Below, one piece after another: positions 20,972 to 31,324 of a stretch of 64,000 bases of DNA. The stretch is from Methanosarcina barkeri MS (lineage in GTDB: Archaea; Halobacteriota; Methanosarcinia; Methanosarcinales; Methanosarcinaceae). Positions within the stretch are counted from its first letter, which is position 1. Each line of letters starts with the position of its first letter. The translations under genes and the position numbers were made by a program. The DNA lies in assembly GCF_000970025.1 (NCBI RefSeq), contig NZ_CP009528.1:1785168-1849167 (forward strand), read 5' to 3'. Under the pieces are notes generated by a model. It had not been told where the DNA came from. It saw nothing but the letters and a program-made list of their open reading frames with translations, and searched no databases.

Positions 20972-21101
20972 AAAAAGCCCAACCCATATTTGATTGGGGA
21001 AAATATCAGGAAAAAGAAGGCAAATTTATGATGCCATTTGCAGTCCAGATTCATCACGCATTTGTTGATGGTATTCATATTGGCAAATTTGCGGATAATG
21101 A
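20972..21101 (+). pseudogene. Chloramphenicol acetyltransferase-like C-terminal fragment, copy 1
   Basis: A short open stretch encodes QPIFDWGKYQEKEGKF, then QIHHAFVDGIHIGKF, the active-site histidine region of the type A chloramphenicol acetyltransferase family. The N-terminal three quarters of the gene are missing, and the frame breaks soon after. Low-complexity AAAAAGG repeats precede it (20870-20945). Two further copies lie at 22135 and 23937. Confidence 0.75.
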
Positions 21102-21125
21102 ATTTCACTCCTGAAAGCTTTAAAA

Positions 21126-21415
21126 GTTCTTAAATACACACATACTCAAGAACATTAGCAAGCAAAAAGGAAAAACTGGATTTTGTTAAACCTGAGTATG
21201 AAATTGAAAGAATTGATTCCTATGATATAAGGCAAAAGATTCTCAATATTTCTTACGTTGGCTGGAAGAAGTTAGGATTTTCTAAAGGTACTTTAACATT
21301 ACATAAGCAGAACACGCAAGCTGATAAGCCGTTTACTCTTAACAGCCATGTTCTGGAAAGGGGAATAAATGGGAGGCTCTGGTTTCAGGTCAAAAGTAAA
21401 CTAGGCACTTTATAA
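21126..21415 (+). pseudogene. Cas1-like C-terminal fragment behind an inverted repeat
   Basis: An imperfect inverted repeat (GTTCTTAAATA/TACTCAAGAAC, 21126-21153) is followed by an open stretch without a start codon. It encodes FVKPEYEIERIDSYDIRQKI, then SYVGWKKLGFSKGTL and DKPFTLNSHVLER, and ends at TAA near 21415. From memory this resembles the C-terminal tail of Methanosarcina Cas1 proteins (type I or casposon), but I cannot confirm it. The same tail, shorter, recurs at 24290 and near 63930. Confidence 0.4.
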
Positions 21416-21419
21416 GCAA

Positions 21420-22130
21420 ATGTTTACAAAGAACAAGCAGATAGACCAGCTTAATGAAGTTACACAGAAACAGGCTGTTCATATCCAGAGCCTAATACAG
21501 GAAAACAGTAAATTGAATACGAAACTTTTTCCTGAGATTACCGAAAAACTCTGTTGGAAGCTGTTTTTCAATATTTAGCTAAAGAAAAGCCATTTAATTT
21601 CTATATATACGTTGACAAGCATAAGAAGGACCAGAACTATCAAATGCCAGCCTCGATAGTGTTTCATGTCTGGCTTAAGTTCCTTATCCCAGTCATCTTC
21701 ATTTATTTCTATATATTTTCCTCCTTCGTTTTTTATTGTTTCAATTCTTATTTTGCTGAAAGTTGTTTTGCAATATGATTCCAAAAAGCCATATCCTGCT
21801 TTTGTTTGCAAAATAAAGTAATTTAATAGCAGATATTTTTGACATATTCCACTGATCTCACTATTACACTGGATATATAAATATCAATGGAATATAATTT
21901 TTTCGAAAATGAACTAGCTGACATTGATAATATATTTTTCTGATGTATGTATTATACATTGAAATTAATTTTTTTAAAACCTTAGGGTAGATCAGCAGAA
22001 AAAACTGATTGTTTTTATTTGCATTCAAGCCGAATGATCAGGGAATTGGAATTATAGGCTAAACGCCACATAAACCTTATTTTCTTTTAACTTATTCTAA
22101 TTTTAATTTAATTTGTCTTTGATAGATGTG
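21420..22130. other. Intergenic decayed region
   Basis: There is no supportable gene. An open stretch from 21420 (MFTKNKQIDQLNEVTQKQA) looks like a coiled-coil fragment and stops at about 21577. A minus-strand frame at 21575-21811 (78 codons, IRIETIKNEGGKYIEINEDD) is possible but unsupported. The rest is AT-rich. Confidence 0.45.
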
Positions 22131-22134
22131 ATGC

Positions 22135-22532
22135 AATTTGAAAAAGATGAAGGGGTAATCTCAATTATCCCGGTATTTGGACAAAAACAGAATTATTTAA
22201 GGTAGTAAATGTTTCCATGCAGGATAAGATTGAGAAGTTTGTACAACTGGCAACCGTAACGGCAGAAAATCAAAAAGGACATTTTAAAGGACCTGTAGAA
22301 AACGATGTATATCAATTCTCTGCCTTTCCGTGGATAACGTTTACGCATATTTCGCACACGGATTTCGGAAACAGGGAAAAAGCGCAACCCATATTTTGAT
22401 TGGGGAAAATATCAGGAAAGAGAAGGTAAATTTATTATGCCGTTTGCAGTCCAGGTTCATCACGCATTTGTTGATGGTATTCATATCGGCAAACTTGCGA
22501 AGAAGCTGCAGAGATATCTGGATGAAATGTAG
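22135..22532 (+). pseudogene. Chloramphenicol acetyltransferase-like gene remnant, copy 2 (frameshifted)
   Basis: This is the longest of three copies. From 22217 it encodes DKIEKFVQLATVTAENQKGH, then FPWITFTHISHTDFGNREKA, and IF. An extra T in CATATTTTGATTGG (near 22397) shifts the frame. In the next frame come DWGKYQEREGKFIMPFAVQ, VHHAFVDGIHIGKLAKKL and a stop. Weak similarity continues upstream to about 22135. The enzyme would acetylate a hydroxyl of an antibiotic or sugar; this copy cannot make a whole protein. Confidence 0.75.
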
Positions 22533-22717
22533 ATTAATCAGTAGTTCACTAATTTTTACTTTTTTAGCCCACTTTCCACAGTATTTCCCAGATATTCACT
22601 ATTTCTTCCGTTATCAATTTTAATCTTAACGTCAATTTATTAGCTTTCTGTAAAAGAGTTCAAAATGGCTAGATGGTGTGTTCAGATACCAAAATAGATT
22701 GCATTATCTTTTTTTAC

Positions 22718-23848
22718 TTAAATCCCAAAGACATCTTTTAAGTTTCCGCTGAACGTGTTTCCTTCACTTGTAACATTGAATTTGCCAGGCACAGTAACAG
22801 CGATTGCATACCCTGCGTACGCGTCCCTATTAAAGGGAGCCACAGTATTCTTTATTTCATTGCCTGTAAGACGCACAACATACCCGGATCCTGCAGAAGT
22901 AGTTATGTAGGTTCCTATTCGGATACCGTTACAGTTACCATCCAGGACATTTTCCTGAATGTCTACCTCTGTCCACCCATCCAGACATATTCCGGCGACG
23001 GCTGAAAGTCTATCAGCAGTTTCTTTGTTTGCAATTACAGGCATTTGCCCACAGTTTGTTATGGTATTCCCTTTAATTGTAAGCCCGGTTGCTGCATCTA
23101 AAGCAGGTGCAGTATGACCAGCCGCCCAGATCCCTGGACCCTGGCACCCGTCAATAATGTTGTTGAGTATCCGGACATTCGATGTAGATTCGTTTGCCCT
23201 GGAGTTTTCAACCTGAATGCCTGGACCTGTACGAGGTTTGTACTTCACAGTGCTCTTTATTGTGTTATCTCGGAAAATTACATTCCTGGAACCTTTAGAG
23301 CGCAGGCCTGAATTGATCCTTGTATAGATCTCATTTCCTGAAGCTTCTACGCCAACACACCTTTCACAATAGAAACCATCATGTCCGACGCCGTATATTT
23401 TGTTTCCAGTGAAGGTTACATCTTTTGAGTCTAAAATCCTAACACCATCACCCTTTGAATTCTGAATTTTCACGTTCCGGATTTTGACTTTTGAAGCTCT
23501 GTTTCCTCCAAATAGATTATGGTAACCTTTCCCATGAAGCACATTCTGCTTATCAGCCAGCCCATCAAACGTGAACCCTTCAAACAGATAATTTTCGCCA
23601 GAGAAACTGAAGACTGGTACCTGTGGCTTCCAGAGGCACGTCGAAGCATATGGTATTAGCTGGATGATTGCTTTTTCATCTCCGGTTATGGTCGTACCAG
23701 GATGTAGCTGAATAGGAGTTTTGGCCGTAAATGTTGTCTTCGTTCCTGTTGTTTTGAGCTCTATTTCTTCGTATCTACGGCCATCGCCGACTTTATCAAA
23801 ACTACTCTGAAGAAATGTTCCTGGTGTTAGAGTTAGTACATTTGTCAT
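22718..23848 (-). CDS. Right-handed parallel beta-helix protein
   Basis: This 376-residue protein has no signal peptide or membrane helix. From about residue 95 it shows repeated short beta strands with Asn/Gly turns typical of pectate-lyase-like parallel beta-helices (VKIRNVKIQNSKGDGVRILD, VTFTGNKIYGVGHDGFY, VEASGNEIYTRINSGLR, VRILNNIIDGCQGPGIW). No catalytic residues can be assigned. Such folds occur in polysaccharide-active enzymes, surface proteins and viral tail spikes. It lies between copies 2 and 3 of the acetyltransferase fragment in a region of decay, so it may have arrived by transfer, yet its frame is intact. Confidence 0.75.
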   Translation of the reverse strand: MTNVLTLTPGTFLQSSFDKVGDGRRYEEIELKTTGTKTTFTAKTPIQLHPGTTITGDEKAIIQLIPYASTCLWKPQVPVFSFSGENYLFEGFTFDGLADKQNVLHGKGYHNLFGGNRASKVKIRNVKIQNSKGDGVRILDSKDVTFTGNKIYGVGHDGFYCERCVGVEASGNEIYTRINSGLRSKGSRNVIFRDNTIKSTVKYKPRTGPGIQVENSRANESTSNVRILNNIIDGCQGPGIWAAGHTAPALDAATGLTIKGNTITNCGQMPVIANKETADRLSAVAGICLDGWTEVDIQENVLDGNCNGIRIGTYITTSAGSGYVVRLTGNEIKNTVAPFNRDAYAGYAIAVTVPGKFNVTSEGNTFSGNLKDVFGI

Positions 23849-23936
23849 ATATTATGCAGGTTCCCCGGATGTTGAAAAAGAAAACTGAATTCTTATTGAG
23901 GTGTTTTAATTTTAAGACTTTTATATTTGCTGTTAC

Positions 23937-24138
23937 AAAGACACTTTCTCACACGTATTTTGAAAATAGGGAAAAAGCGCAACCCATATTTGATTGGGGA
24001 AAATATCATGAAAGAGAAGGCAAATTTATGATGCCATTTGCAGTTCAGGTTCATCATGCATTTGTTGATGGTATTCATATTGGCAAACTTGCAGATAAGC
24101 TGCAGAAATATCTAGATGAAGTGCAGATTAATCAGTAG
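23937..24138 (+). pseudogene. Chloramphenicol acetyltransferase-like C-terminal fragment, copy 3
   Basis: The frame encodes TLSHTYFENREKAQPIFDWG, then KYHEREGKFMMPFAVQ, VHHAFVDGIHIGKLADKL and a stop at 24136-24138. It matches copy 2 closely through and beyond the stop (GATTAATCAGTAGTTCA), so the two are parts of a duplicated segment. The N-terminal half is absent. An ATG at 23815 in frame precedes it, but the intervening 40 codons do not look like the family. Confidence 0.72.
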
Positions 24139-24239
24139 TTCATTAATTATTATTTTTTAAAGTTATGTCTTCAGAATATATAGGTTTTGTAGTAAAACAT
24201 ATCCATTTTTTAGTTTTACTCTCCTAAAAACCTTAAAAG

Positions 24240-24352
24240 TTCTTGAATACGAATATATTCAAGAACCCAAGGCAAGCAAAAAGAGATAAGTCCTTCACCC
24301 TTAATAGCCATGTTTTAGAGAGAGTTAAGGCTTGGAAAAAGTAGTTATTGGA
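24240..24352 (+). pseudogene. Inverted repeat plus second Cas1-like tail fragment
   Basis: A perfect 10-bp inverted repeat TTCTTGAATA/TATTCAAGAA (24240-24265, 6-base loop) is followed by CCAAGGCAAGCAAAAAG, as in the copy at 21126. Then comes a short frame for FTLNSHVLERVKAWKK and a stop near 24343. The pairing of acetyltransferase end, inverted repeat and tail occurs twice, so the whole segment was copied. The remaining gap to 24465 is AT-rich with nothing visible. Confidence 0.45.
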
Positions 24353-24465
24353 TGTAGATATATTTAATTTCTAAATTGAGGTGAGTTAAGGCATAGAGGA
24401 ATTAGTTTAATATGCTGAGGATTAAAGGGCTTCAAATTTTAAGGTAAAGGTTTTATTTTAAGTTT

Positions 24466-26019
24466 TTACTTAAGGTGTGAAGATCGGATATATTCTGAGA
24501 GGTCTATCATTATTGACAGTAAAGTTACAACTTTTTGCCTATCACCAATACTAGACATGTGTTCAGAGTAAACACTATTACTTTTCAACTGTCCGTAGTA
24601 GTCGTCTTTTTCTCGAATTGTCCCATCAATATAGGTATTATGATCTTTAATGAAATATTTCCATCCTTCAAAGCCAGTATATTTCCGTTTATAAGTAGGA
24701 TTATTATGTGCGTTTATAACAACAATTACTCCAAAGTTTCCATCTGTCAATTGTTCAATTATTTCAGTTATTGGCTCATAGGATTCCCCATTAAATCGCC
24801 ATAATATTTTAACTTCAATAGGAATATCATATCCTTCTCGTCTAACTGCTAGTAGATCTGTGGTTCTTCCAGAACTCAAAAATGCTTCTTTTTCAATATA
24901 CTCGACATCATCACTTTTATTGGAGGAAAGTGCCACTCTTAACAAATCTCTGAAATAATTTTCATTGTAATTCTCGTCCCTTATTTTTTGTTGAATGTCT
25001 TTTACTTGTTTAAAAGATTGAATGGCTTTATCTATAACAAGCAGTGTTTCAGAATTGTGTTTAAGTTTATTATAAGGTGTATAAACAATTGGATTAGGTT
25101 TAATAAGTTCAAAATATTGAGAATTCCTGAGCTTATCAAGCAAGGCTAATAAAGCATATCTTGGCTTTCTAGTGTGATTTGCACCAGAAATCCAATTAGA
25201 TTCTACAAAAAAATCATTTGGAATTTTTGATTTTGTCTGGAGCAAAATATCTTTATCTAAACCAAATAAGAAAAAAGTACACCATGTAAATGAATATTGA
25301 TCCCATTTATTAACTTCAATCATGTCTTTTAATACTTTTTTTATACTTGAATATATATCATTATATTCTGGATCAGAATATTTCTTTTGCAAGCATCGAA
25401 TAAGATTCAATGAATTAGCACGAATTTCATTTGATCGTTTGAAATATTTTAGTTTTCCATTATTTTTTTCATAAAGTAATTTTAGAAAAGATTTAATCTC
25501 ATCTAAATGAGTTGTATCTAGTATCTTGTCAGTATTCAATATTAATCGGATACATTCAAGATAAGAGAAAGCAGCTAATGGAACACTAGCTTTTTCCTTT
25601 CTTGAATAATTAAAGAAATTTGGGAATTTTTTTGCAAAATATTCTCCATCAGAATTTTCAAGCAAATACTCATTTAAATTTATTATATTAAATTTATGCA
25701 ATAAGTTCTTCATGCGTATTGTTTGCCAACAATCTAACCACCAATTATTCTCATTATTATAAAATCGGGAGTCGAATTTTAAAAATCTACTATAATAATC
25801 ATTCCTACATGGAAGTTGACATAAATCAAATAGGGATTGAATTCTACTGTCAGATATTATCTCGACGTTTGAGGAGGAATTTTCACGTATATAATTCAAT
25901 ACTTCAATACTGTCTAAAACCAAAGTTTTTCGGTTTTGCCACATATCGTGATCTCTTTCTAAATCATAGTCCAAAAAGCGTAGCCAATCACTAACCACGG
26001 ATGAATCATTTAATTGCAT
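24466..26019 (-). CDS. Large protein with C-terminal PD-(D/E)XK nuclease-like domain
   Basis: This protein has about 517 residues. The first ~340 residues are helix-rich and match no family I recognise. The C-terminal part has a restriction-nuclease-like core: NYFRDLLRVAL, then TTDLLAV (Asp392 when counted from the upstream GTG at 26031), then IPIEVKI (Glu406 and Lys408), followed by IIEQLTDGNFGVIVVIN. This D-x13-E-x-K spacing fits PD-(D/E)XK enzymes. The ATG at 26019 is preferred as the start: it lies one base after the stop of the nucleotidyltransferase gene and has AGGTG inside that gene's last codons. The pair is thus translationally linked. A toxin-antitoxin or defence role is inference from this linkage. 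Confidence 0.7.
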   Translation of the reverse strand: MQLNDSSVVSDWLRFLDYDLERDHDMWQNRKTLVLDSIEVLNYIRENSSSNVEIISDSRIQSLFDLCQLPCRNDYYSRFLKFDSRFYNNENNWWLDCWQTIRMKNLLHKFNIINLNEYLLENSDGEYFAKKFPNFFNYSRKEKASVPLAAFSYLECIRLILNTDKILDTTHLDEIKSFLKLLYEKNNGKLKYFKRSNEIRANSLNLIRCLQKKYSDPEYNDIYSSIKKVLKDMIEVNKWDQYSFTWCTFFLFGLDKDILLQTKSKIPNDFFVESNWISGANHTRKPRYALLALLDKLRNSQYFELIKPNPIVYTPYNKLKHNSETLLVIDKAIQSFKQVKDIQQKIRDENYNENYFRDLLRVALSSNKSDDVEYIEKEAFLSSGRTTDLLAVRREGYDIPIEVKILWRFNGESYEPITEIIEQLTDGNFGVIVVINAHNNPTYKRKYTGFEGWKYFIKDHNTYIDGTIREKDDYYGQLKSNSVYSEHMSSIGDRQKVVTLLSIMIDLSEYIRSSHLK

Positions 26020-26020
26020 A

Positions 26021-26329
26021 TTAATTAGCACCTTTTAGTATTTGCTTGTGAAATCTCAAATCATTTAGTAATTTATCATTAAATTGTGTAGGAGTATATA
26101 TAAAAATATCAAAATTATAGGGGATATCGACAAGCATCTTTTTCACGTACTTTTTGTTCTCAAAGTATGAATACTCTTCAAAAGACTTATCTACACATAC
26201 AATATCTATATCTGAATTTTCATAGTTCCAACTATCACTTAAAAATGAGCCAATTATAAAGAAATTTGATACTTTATTTTTGAAGCTTTTTCTAATTAGA
26301 TTTACTATATCTGATTTTGCTTGACTCAT
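26021..26329 (-). CDS. MNT-type nucleotidyltransferase
   Basis: This 102-residue minimal nucleotidyltransferase shows GSFLSDSWNYENSDIDIV with Gly27-Ser28 and the metal-binding Asp40 and Asp42, plus a third Asp at position 74 (YNFDIFIY), so the active site appears complete. Small MNT proteins often act as antitoxins that AMPylate a HEPN toxin. Here no HEPN gene is present; the partner is the nuclease-like protein directly downstream. The gene is first in the pair and is preceded by AT-rich DNA with only a weak ribosome site. Confidence 0.8.
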   Translation of the reverse strand: MSQAKSDIVNLIRKSFKNKVSNFFIIGSFLSDSWNYENSDIDIVCVDKSFEEYSYFENKKYVKKMLVDIPYNFDIFIYTPTQFNDKLLNDLRFHKQILKGAN

Positions 26330-26439
26330 ACTTTACATCTACATCGATTTTATTGAAAAAATGTCGTTCATACATAAACATATACTGCTATATTTCGAAC
26401 ACTTACCAAATATTTAAAAAACTAAATGAAATATTATTT

Positions 26440-27060
26440 TGAATTTACTACTTTACTATAAAAGTAGTTTGAAAAGAGAAAGAAGATTTGAAATGAATTC
26501 AGTTATTTAACAGAGGAATTTTTCAGCCGGAACGAGAAGGAATTTTCAGGCACAATTGAACTTTTACAGGATAAAATATCAAAATATTTATCCATTTAAT
26601 CGGATACTTCCATCTTATGAACAACCATAACGAAGCAGAAAGTTCAGGTCATAATTCAGTTCACTATGACGCCGATAAAATTCCAGGATGGAACGAAGAT
26701 CTTGAACTGGCTTTTTCTGCCTACAAAGGCCCCTACACTCCCGGAAGAGTTGCATTAAGGCATAAAACGGTCTGCGAGGTACTTGTCTCTGGGGCTGTCG
26801 TACAGGCGGGAATCTCAAGTGCACTTCTGAAATTGGAAAGCAGCCGGTTGTAGGGGATTTTGTCGTTTTGCTTGACCAGCCTGAACTGAGCTCACGCATA
26901 GGTGTGAATGTTCTTCCCAGGAAGAGGCGGTTGAAGACGGGATTATTCCAGAAGAACGGCTTACCAGCTATCACAGATTAACTGAAGAGCTCATATTCCA
27001 GTCAAAAAAGCAGAAATTGGGCTGAAACGACTTGAAAAGGAAAAATTCAAGAAAAGATAG
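26440..27060 (+). pseudogene. Truncated duplicate of rsgA with internal deletion
   Basis: This region copies the intact gene at 27666 together with about 180 bases of its upstream DNA (26440-26616 matches 27488-27665). It encodes the first ~70 residues ([20 protein letters not shown] onward), loses the frame at TTGGAAAGCAGCCGG, and then jumps. The junction AGGAAGAGG/CGGTTGAAGACGGG near 26930 joins the OB-fold region to the C-terminal zinc region, removing the whole GTPase core. It ends like the parent at GAAACGACTTGAAAAGG. No functional protein is expected. Confidence 0.88.
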
Positions 27061-27174
27061 GCTCTTAAGATCTTCTGCTGAATACTTTCTTACATATGTA
27101 TTTGTATAAAATCATCTAACATTTGAATAAGCGGATCAAATGCTCTTATATCTCCACTCTGATTGAATCACGTA

Positions 27175-27483
27175 CTATTTCCTCTCTTTTTCCCCATATA
27201 AAGCTCCAAAAATCATTCCAAAGGCAGGTCCGAGAGCAATCCCCATGGTTAGATTGTCCATCATAAGGCCAAGTATCAAACCGAATGACATGCCAATGGA
27301 AAGTCCAATCGCCATTGCGTCTTCTTTTTCATTTTCGCTCTCATTTTCTTTCTCTTTAGCACAGCTTCCAATGTATTTGTCAGCCTTATCGAGCCTTTTC
27401 CCTAAAAGTGAGGATATAAGTAAAACGGCTATAACAATGACAATAAAAATTACAATTATTCGTAAAGATGCAGAATCGATCAT
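27175..27483 (-). CDS. Small membrane protein with glycine-rich helix
   Basis: This 102-residue protein has an N-terminal hydrophobic helix (residues 8-26), a charged acidic/basic linker (KEKENESENEKED), and a second hydrophobic stretch rich in Gly and Met (AIGLSIGMSFGLILGLMMDN, then GIALGPAFGMIFGALYG) resembling glycine-zipper membrane segments. The function is unknown. It sits between the rsgA duplicate and rsgA on the opposite strand. The charged linker and hydrophobic ends make a chance frame unlikely. Confidence 0.65.
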   Translation of the reverse strand: MIDSASLRIIVIFIVIVIAVLLISSLLGKRLDKADKYIGSCAKEKENESENEKEDAMAIGLSIGMSFGLILGLMMDNLTMGIALGPAFGMIFGALYGEKERK

Positions 27484-27665
27484 TGCTTTGAATTTGTTAC
27501 TTTACTATAAAAAGAATTTGAAAATAGAAAGAGGATTTAATATGGAGTCAGTTCTCCGACAGGGAACTTTTTCAGCCGGAATGAGAAGGAATTTTCAGGC
27601 ACAATTGGATTTTTACAGGACAAAATCTCAAAATATTTATCCATTTAATCGGATACTTCCATCTT

Positions 27666-28775
27666 ATGAGCAATCATAACGAAGCAGAAAATTCAGGTCA
27701 TAATTCCATCCACTGGGACGCCAATAAAATTCCAGGCTGGAACAAAGATCTTGAACTGGCATTTTCTGCCTACAAAGGCCCCTACACTCCCGGAAGAGTT
27801 GCATCAAGGCATAAAACGGTTTGCGAGGTCCTTGTCTCTGGGGCTGTCGTACAGGCTGGAATCTCAGGCGCACTTCTGAAAATTGGGAAGCAGCCGGTCG
27901 TAGGGGATTTTGTCGTTTTGCTTGACCAGCCTGAACTGGGCTCACGCATGGTTGTGAATATTCTGCCCAGGAGGACCTGCCTTTCAAGAGGGGCAGCAGG
28001 AGATGGTGGCGGAGAGCAGGTAATTGCTGCAAATCTTGATACCATTTTTATCGTGACTTCAGTTGGTAAGGATCTCAACCTTCGAAGGCTTGAGAGATAT
28101 CTTGCCATTGTGTATTCTTCCGGGGCAAGCCCTGTGATTTTACTTAACAAAATCGACCTTGAAGATAACCCAACCCGGCTGGTAGAAAAAATCCAGTCCA
28201 TTGCAGGTAACGTGCCAGTTATTCCATTAAGCGCTCTTTCAAAAACCGGACTTGACGAACTTATCCCTTACCTCAACCCTGGGGAAACAATTGCATTAAT
28301 CGGTTCCTCAGGTGTTGGAAAATCCACGCTTATCAACGCTTTTCTTGGCGAAACCATCCAGAAAACCGGAGATATCCGGAAAGACGATGAAAAAGGCAGG
28401 CATACAACCACAGTCCGCCAGCTCTTCCTGCTTCCAAATGGGGCGGTTCTTATAGACAACCCCGGAATCAGGGAAATCCAGCTCGGAGACTCTGCAGACG
28501 GGCTTGAAAAAGCTTTTTCCGAGATTGTTGACGCAGCCCGCAATTGCAAGTTTAAAGACTGCACTCACCGCGACGAGCCGGGCTGTGCTGTCCTGAAGGC
28601 GGTTGAGGACGGGCTTATTCCTGAAGAACGGCTTGCCAGCTATCACAGATTAAACGAAGAACTCATATTCCAGTCAAAAAAAGCAGAAATTGGGCTGAAA
28701 CGGCTTGAAAAGGATAAATGCAAGAAAATAGCAGTGGATATTAAAAAATATAAGAAATTTACAGGCAAGTTGTGA
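27666..28775 (+). CDS. rsgA: Ribosome-associated circularly permuted GTPase RsgA (YjeQ/EngC)
   Basis: This 369-residue GTPase assists late small-subunit ribosome maturation in bacteria and is also found in some Methanosarcina. An N-terminal OB-like region (residues 30-110) is followed by the permuted GTPase order: G4 LLNKIDL, G5 PLSALSK, G1 [10 protein letters not shown] and G3 DNPGIRE. The C-terminal zinc knuckle [16 protein letters not shown] follows. A decayed copy lies just upstream. The start has weak ribosome-site support; the same upstream DNA occurs before the pseudogene. Likely acquired from bacteria, judging by the family's distribution. Confidence 0.92.
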
Positions 28776-30854: not shown

Positions 30855-31324
30855 TTTACATTCATTTTTTTGCTTTTTGAACATGATCCGGAACTCAGTT
30901 CCAGTGTATCTTTTAAGTTCAATACAACCTTCAATCTGTTCTACGAGAATATTTACAAGTTGAAGCCCAAGAGAATCGGTATTTCTGAAGCCGAAATTTT
31001 TGGGAATGCCTACTCCGTTATCGGCAACTATCAGAAGAGAAAATAAACTGAAAGCCTCCTTCGTTTTTGCAGACTCCTGGCTTCATTTTCTCTATTGCTA
31101 TACTCTGATGCAAAGAGACTTATGTGAATTTCTTCATCTTCTCTTTCTCCATCTTCTTTTTCTCCATTTTCTCTTTCTCCATCTTTTCCTTCTCCATTTT
31201 CTCTTTCTCCATCTTCTCCTTCTCCATTTTCTCCTTCTCCCTTCTCTCCTGCAGGAAAAGCATACTTCAGGGCATTTGAAACAAGTTCGTTTACTACGAT
31301 TTCCATAGGAGCAGCTGTATCCAT
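30855..31324 (-). pseudogene. Histidine kinase C-terminal remnant with low-complexity insertion
   Basis: From 31324 the minus strand encodes PMEIVVNELVSNALKYAFP, the N-box of a HisKA_2-type ATPase domain, then a run of Gly-Glu-Asn/Asp-rich repeats (GEGENGEGEDGE). After a frameshift near 31030 come VADNGVGIPKNFGFRN, then DSLGLQLVNILVEQIEG and a stop near 30855. The sensory domains and phospho-acceptor His are missing. It resembles the intact kinase at 33426. Upstream of it (31340-31410) are degenerate ATCCTAACTCTAACT repeats. Confidence 0.75.

Follow-up and report, generated by a model that had tools for sequence, protein, structure and literature searches.

A minimal nucleotidyltransferase gene coupled to a gene for a putatively nuclease-like protein at an exchange site in Methanosarcina barkeri MS

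A stretch of 64,000 nucleotides from Methanosarcina barkeri MS (here called the window) carries a gene for a minimal nucleotidyltransferase (MNT) directly followed by a gene for a large partner protein. The MNT has an intact active site, the two genes are coupled, the usual HEPN partner is absent, and the pair occupies a location whose contents vary between related genomes. We tentatively read the two genes as an accessory module at an exchange site, possibly an MNT-controlled and putatively nuclease-based toxin-antitoxin or defence system that would be a rare variant of MNT modules. The coupled genes and the ribosome-binding-like site of the second are as follows.

26021-26329, minus strand: first gene, the MNT, 102 aa, recognised by a PF01909 match and its catalytic set
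24466-26019, minus strand: the 517-aa partner protein (from translation), which has no family, a mostly helical N-terminal part and a putative PD-(D/E)XK nuclease-like C-terminal part
26029-26035, minus strand: Shine-Dalgarno-like AAAGGTG, read from the sequence, 9 nt before the partner ATG and within the end of the MNT gene

The first gene matches the Pfam family NTP_transf_2 (PF01909) above its cut-off (E 2.2e-5, 25.2 bits, cut-off 21), and the PADLOC model PDC-M05A matches it weakly (E 2.5e-4). When the protein is aligned to nine archaeal MNTs, G27 S28, D40-x-D42 and D74 fall in invariant columns, and the ARG that usually follows GS is absent. The spacing is GS-x11-DxD, one residue more than the GSX10DXD motif of HEPN-paired MntA (PMC7641770). 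The partner starts with the ATG at 26019, one base past the MNT stop; with the alternative GTG at 26031 as start, the two genes would overlap. With this one-base gap and a ribosome-binding-like site inside the first gene, the coupling of the two genes is operon-like. Their GC contents are 29.3% and 25.2%, against 38.3% for the whole window, and we infer that an open frame of 517 aa in 29% GC DNA is no chance product. An earlier note on this DNA had described a minimal MNT with a complete Gly-Ser/Asp-Asp/Asp site, a protein of ~517 residues one base after its stop and an AT-rich pair, and it was right on all of these points.

MNT antitoxins are abundant in archaea, and it is with HEPN toxins that their mode of action has been established. 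This genome contains eight PF01909 matches. Three other small MNTs (L003-L005) each have a gene of 97-121 aa downstream (3/3) that carries an RX4HXY-type motif and is labelled HEPN by that motif, not by a family search; a fourth small MNT (L007) has no HEPN neighbour in the stretch examined. Five aligned MNT relatives from the order (24-31% identity) all adjoin genes that are HEPN-like by the same motif reading, and some weaker matches do not. No HEPN ORF lies beside the MNT of the window and no HEPN family is found in its partner, which is four to five times the size of the HEPN partners. A HEPN domain hidden in the partner was considered and ruled out, as the protein has a single R-x5-H (residue 102), which is expected by chance in 517 residues.

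Like HEPN/MNT systems (HepT/MntA, type VII) and PDC-M05, the pair begins with a gene for a minimal PF01909 nucleotidyltransferase that is coupled to a second gene, and MNT first, then toxin, is the gene order in MNT-HEPN pairs (PMC3710099). Type VII differs in having a HEPN toxin with RX4-6H and an MNT spacing of x10, whereas the pair of the window has a spacing of x11 and a 517-aa partner with a nuclease-like C-terminus; PDC-M05, an archaeal defence candidate, is itself an MNT and HEPN system (PMC12988326). Archaeal operons with MNT and REase (DUF1626) genes have been noted together with PaREP-type HEPN (PMC3710099), so there is a precedent for linking both kinds of protein. The likeness is that of a nucleotidyltransferase gene tied to a restriction-endonuclease-fold protein in archaea, a fold that is putative in our partner; those operons also hold a HEPN gene, and their REase belongs to a named family, whereas the partner here matches no Pfam family. 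MenAT is alike in having two genes, one of them for a nucleotidyltransferase. MenT, however, is a larger nucleotidyltransferase toxin, while the pair of the window combines a minimal MNT with a nuclease-like partner and showed no match to MenAT-type families.

Two parts of the partner bear on what it may do.

24700-24963, minus strand: putative PD-(D/E)XK core, residues about 353-440, a sequence pattern of E353, D388, E402-x-K404 and Q423
24469-24729, minus strand: C-terminal tail, residues 431-517, the sole part with a detectable relative

Going by its sequence pattern, a PD-(D/E)XK nuclease at the partner C-terminus is plausible. Enzymes of this kind typically show an E upstream, then D, then ExK and a Q downstream. 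Near the C-terminus of the partner we located the D-x13-E-x-K spacing that had been pointed out before, as D388-x13-E402-x-K404; E353 falls in the helix-like stretch before it, and Q423-L424 follow ExK. A loose regular expression for the order of the core, written post hoc, fits 158 of 20,000 shuffles (~0.8%), so the motif is suggestive and no proof. MmcB-like, itself a PD-(D/E)XK family, is the third-ranked Pfam match of the partner and is below threshold (residues 378-404, E 0.2), and it is gone when the isolated segment is searched alone against Pfam. The D-x(n)-ExK arrangement is common to the partner and to MmcB-like and other PD-(D/E)XK families, from which the partner differs by its long helical N-terminus and an extra conserved tail. 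The Pfam matches to RIH_assoc and Lge1 lie below the cut-off and were set aside as helical-composition matches. No fitting family was found in Pfam, NCBIfam, PADLOC or PHROG and no sequence relative in the PDB, and single-sequence hhalign comparisons with nearby REase and RT domains did no better than background, which is informative in neither direction. AlphaFold models built without relatives reached a pLDDT of 37 for the full partner and 32 for its C-terminal 200 residues, both unusable, and the lack of a significant Foldseek match to the former is meaningless for such a model. At a pLDDT below 50, the full-length model places strands at 386-392, 402-408 and 430-436 and a helix at 415-425, so that an otherwise poor model has the helix-strand-strand-helix-strand order that the motif predicts.

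We looked for relatives of the partner in 393 genomes that span the phylum, in 186 genomes from the order and in 58 from the ANME-1 class. Apart from the partner's own genome, a credible match came up only once, in a Methanophagales MAG (L011:140-430): a degraded C-terminal piece with 45-47% identity to the last 87 partner residues. It begins in decayed sequence close to the end of a contig, beside unrelated secreted proteins, and this 5.8-kb contig carries no MNT. GFxGWK and DHxTYIxGTxRE are conserved in the tail; the region of D388 and ExK lies outside the stretch that the relative covers. Because the tail is kept at 45-47% in another archaeal order, the partner represents a real protein family. 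Searches of plasmid, phage and viral collections, tblastn on plasmids and phages among them, came up empty, scans of genome contigs yielded no full-length relative, and none of 15 contigs matching the GFxGWK pattern encodes a relative. For bacteria the coverage consisted of tblastn on plasmids and phages and, for the chromosomes, of short peptide patterns only, so that bacterial relatives may be missed. Two archaeal matches to the C-terminal domain (G102 and G266, E about 0.005) are in frames that overlap unrelated genes, and we regard them as chance. No second MNT-partner pair was found in the 393, 186 and 58 genomes or in the plasmid, phage and viral collections, and the pair is missing from all other searched genomes of the order (186), a patchy distribution.

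The genomic setting of the pair was delimited by blastn.

24210-26432, no strand: module-specific insert, delimited by comparing the window with 13 related loci (blastn); no counterpart in the compared genomes of the genus; edges approximate
22718-24209: left anchor (blastn), a beta-helix-like gene (22718-23848, minus strand) and CAT-like debris (23945-24209)
26433-28775: right anchor, rsgA debris (26433-27055), a small gene (27175-27483, minus strand) and intact rsgA (27666-28775)

The pair is thus the cargo, about 2.2 kb long, between the beta-helix gene and rsgA. The left anchor is present as 93-94% identical blocks in G310, G379, G499, G501 and G227, and the right anchor has blastn matches in 26 of 31 genomes from the genus. 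What lies at the same site differs from genome to genome: a retron-class reverse transcriptase (RT_III-A, E 7e-105) in G355, a type IV mREase (E 1.8e-57) in G499, a 905-aa TPR protein in G488, a 630-aa pentapeptide protein in G310, two unknown genes in G379, PfkB-like and M48 peptidase genes in G501, genes that read as transposase-like in translation in G487, and about 0.5 kb only in G227; in G381 an Mrr_cat gene adjoins the right anchor. Such varied cargo at one site in related genomes makes it an exchange hotspot; of the cases that can be clearly assigned, a minority are antiviral genes. The counterpart of 22718-28775 holds other cargo in each compared Methanosarcina-type genome, and one site (L085) is nearly empty.

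The module that we tentatively prefer could work as follows. The MNT would be made first and would act as the control, antitoxin-like subunit; using ATP or another NTP, it would nucleotidylate the large partner or bind it, and so keep it off. The helical N-terminal part of the partner would sense or scaffold, and its putative C-terminal PD-(D/E)XK-type nuclease would cut nucleic acid once control is lost, for example on virus infection. Release of the partner might then lead to growth arrest or restriction, toxicity and an antiviral role both being suppositions here. The stronger claim that the MNT restrains a PD-(D/E)XK nuclease specifically by nucleotidylation, and that the pair is a new antiviral class of toxin-antitoxin system, we consider unlikely. 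If it were true, the reach of MNT-mediated control would extend from HEPN RNases to nucleases of another fold, and switching off by nucleotidylation would be more general than is known.

An MNT-controlled module is favoured by the MNT-first order, the coupling and the intact MNT site (PMC3710099, PMC7641770). The candidate toxin-antitoxin or defence module of the earlier note survives in part: the MNT is real, the partner is not HEPN, the spacing is operon-like and the site is exchangeable, with antiviral genes in some relatives. The nuclease fold and the recurrence of the pair remain candidate features. For the fold there is no family match and no usable structural model; for the recurrence, the sole relative is a degraded piece at the edge of a contig that carries no MNT, which speaks neither for nor against the conserved adjacency that the note had named as support. 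Counting against a module, besides the lack of a recurring pair in the genomes searched and of family, PDB or structural support for the nuclease, are the x11 spacing and missing ARG of the MNT and the presence of cargo unrelated to defence (PfkB-like, M48) at the site. The partner might instead be a stand-alone restriction-like or abortive-infection nuclease, with the MNT as a chance neighbour, left over from an MNT-HEPN pair after loss of the HEPN gene, the two having landed together in one hotspot. Hotspots do gather unrelated cargo, within the order the closest relatives of the MNT mostly have HEPN genes as neighbours, and the one relative of the partner has no MNT nearby. Against this origin stand the one-base gap, the ribosome-binding-like site within the MNT gene and the undamaged catalytic set, and we judge it rather unlikely, if the least so of the alternatives.

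The roles of the two proteins could also be reversed, the MNT being the effector, as a MenT-like toxin or a small-molecule nucleotidyltransferase, and the large protein an antitoxin, substrate binder or target selector. Nucleotidyltransferase toxins exist, MenT being one (PMC10435456), and 517 aa is far above the typical size of a single-domain toxin. This MNT, however, consists of one minimal domain, as the HEPN-paired antitoxins do, and it is the large protein that bears a nuclease-like motif and lies downstream, as the toxins of MNT modules do, which makes the reversal improbable. Slightly less improbable, and still doubtful, is that the C-terminal motif is due to chance, that the partner is a helical scaffold or adaptor and no nuclease, and that the two genes form an accessory operon with some unrelated function. 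This would fit a protein with no family or fold match, a loose core pattern that turns up in about 0.8% of shuffles, and conservation across species in the tail after the motif, the motif itself lying outside the stretch that the relative covers. Against it stand the order of elements, which is the one expected (E on a helix, D and then ExK on strands, Q on a helix, then a further strand), with the strands taken from a low-confidence model, and the fact that in three other genomes restriction-type or RT genes occupy the site or adjoin it.

The insert is flanked by duplicated gene debris, as had been noted earlier, with CAT-like copies on one side and rsgA fragments on the other; both gene names are readings of translations. 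A 170-nt C-terminal fragment of a CAT-like acetyltransferase is present in three copies (at 20989, 22395 and 23989, within 20972-24209) that are 66-90% alike, and the rsgA fragments (26433-27055) lie beside the intact gene. Relatives that lack the pair (e.g. G310 and G488) have the same debris, so the insertion probably came after the duplications. Many further copies of the CAT-like fragment occur at related loci.

Whatever the pair does, the rsgA-adjacent exchange site of Methanosarcina-type genomes is a compact hunting ground for undescribed archaeal antiviral genes. At one hotspot locus (L060:11591-13306) the retron-class RT is 572 aa long and has a PD-(D/E)XK-like C-terminal stretch (KLDFKFLV...CAEFKL...KQLP), with a gene for a YqaJ-like nuclease near it. 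At another (L059:3549-6688) a gene for a 135-aa protein with a weak PDC-M14B match precedes that for the 905-aa TPR protein, whose C-terminus looks PIN-like, and the two are a candidate defence pair. A third (L062:2099-4383) holds adjacent genes for proteins of 298 and 459 aa, to which neither Pfam nor PADLOC assigns a family. Elsewhere in the window, a 15-base tandem repeat (31115-31264) encodes a charged repeat in a histidine-kinase-like ORF fragment (31031-31324, minus strand).
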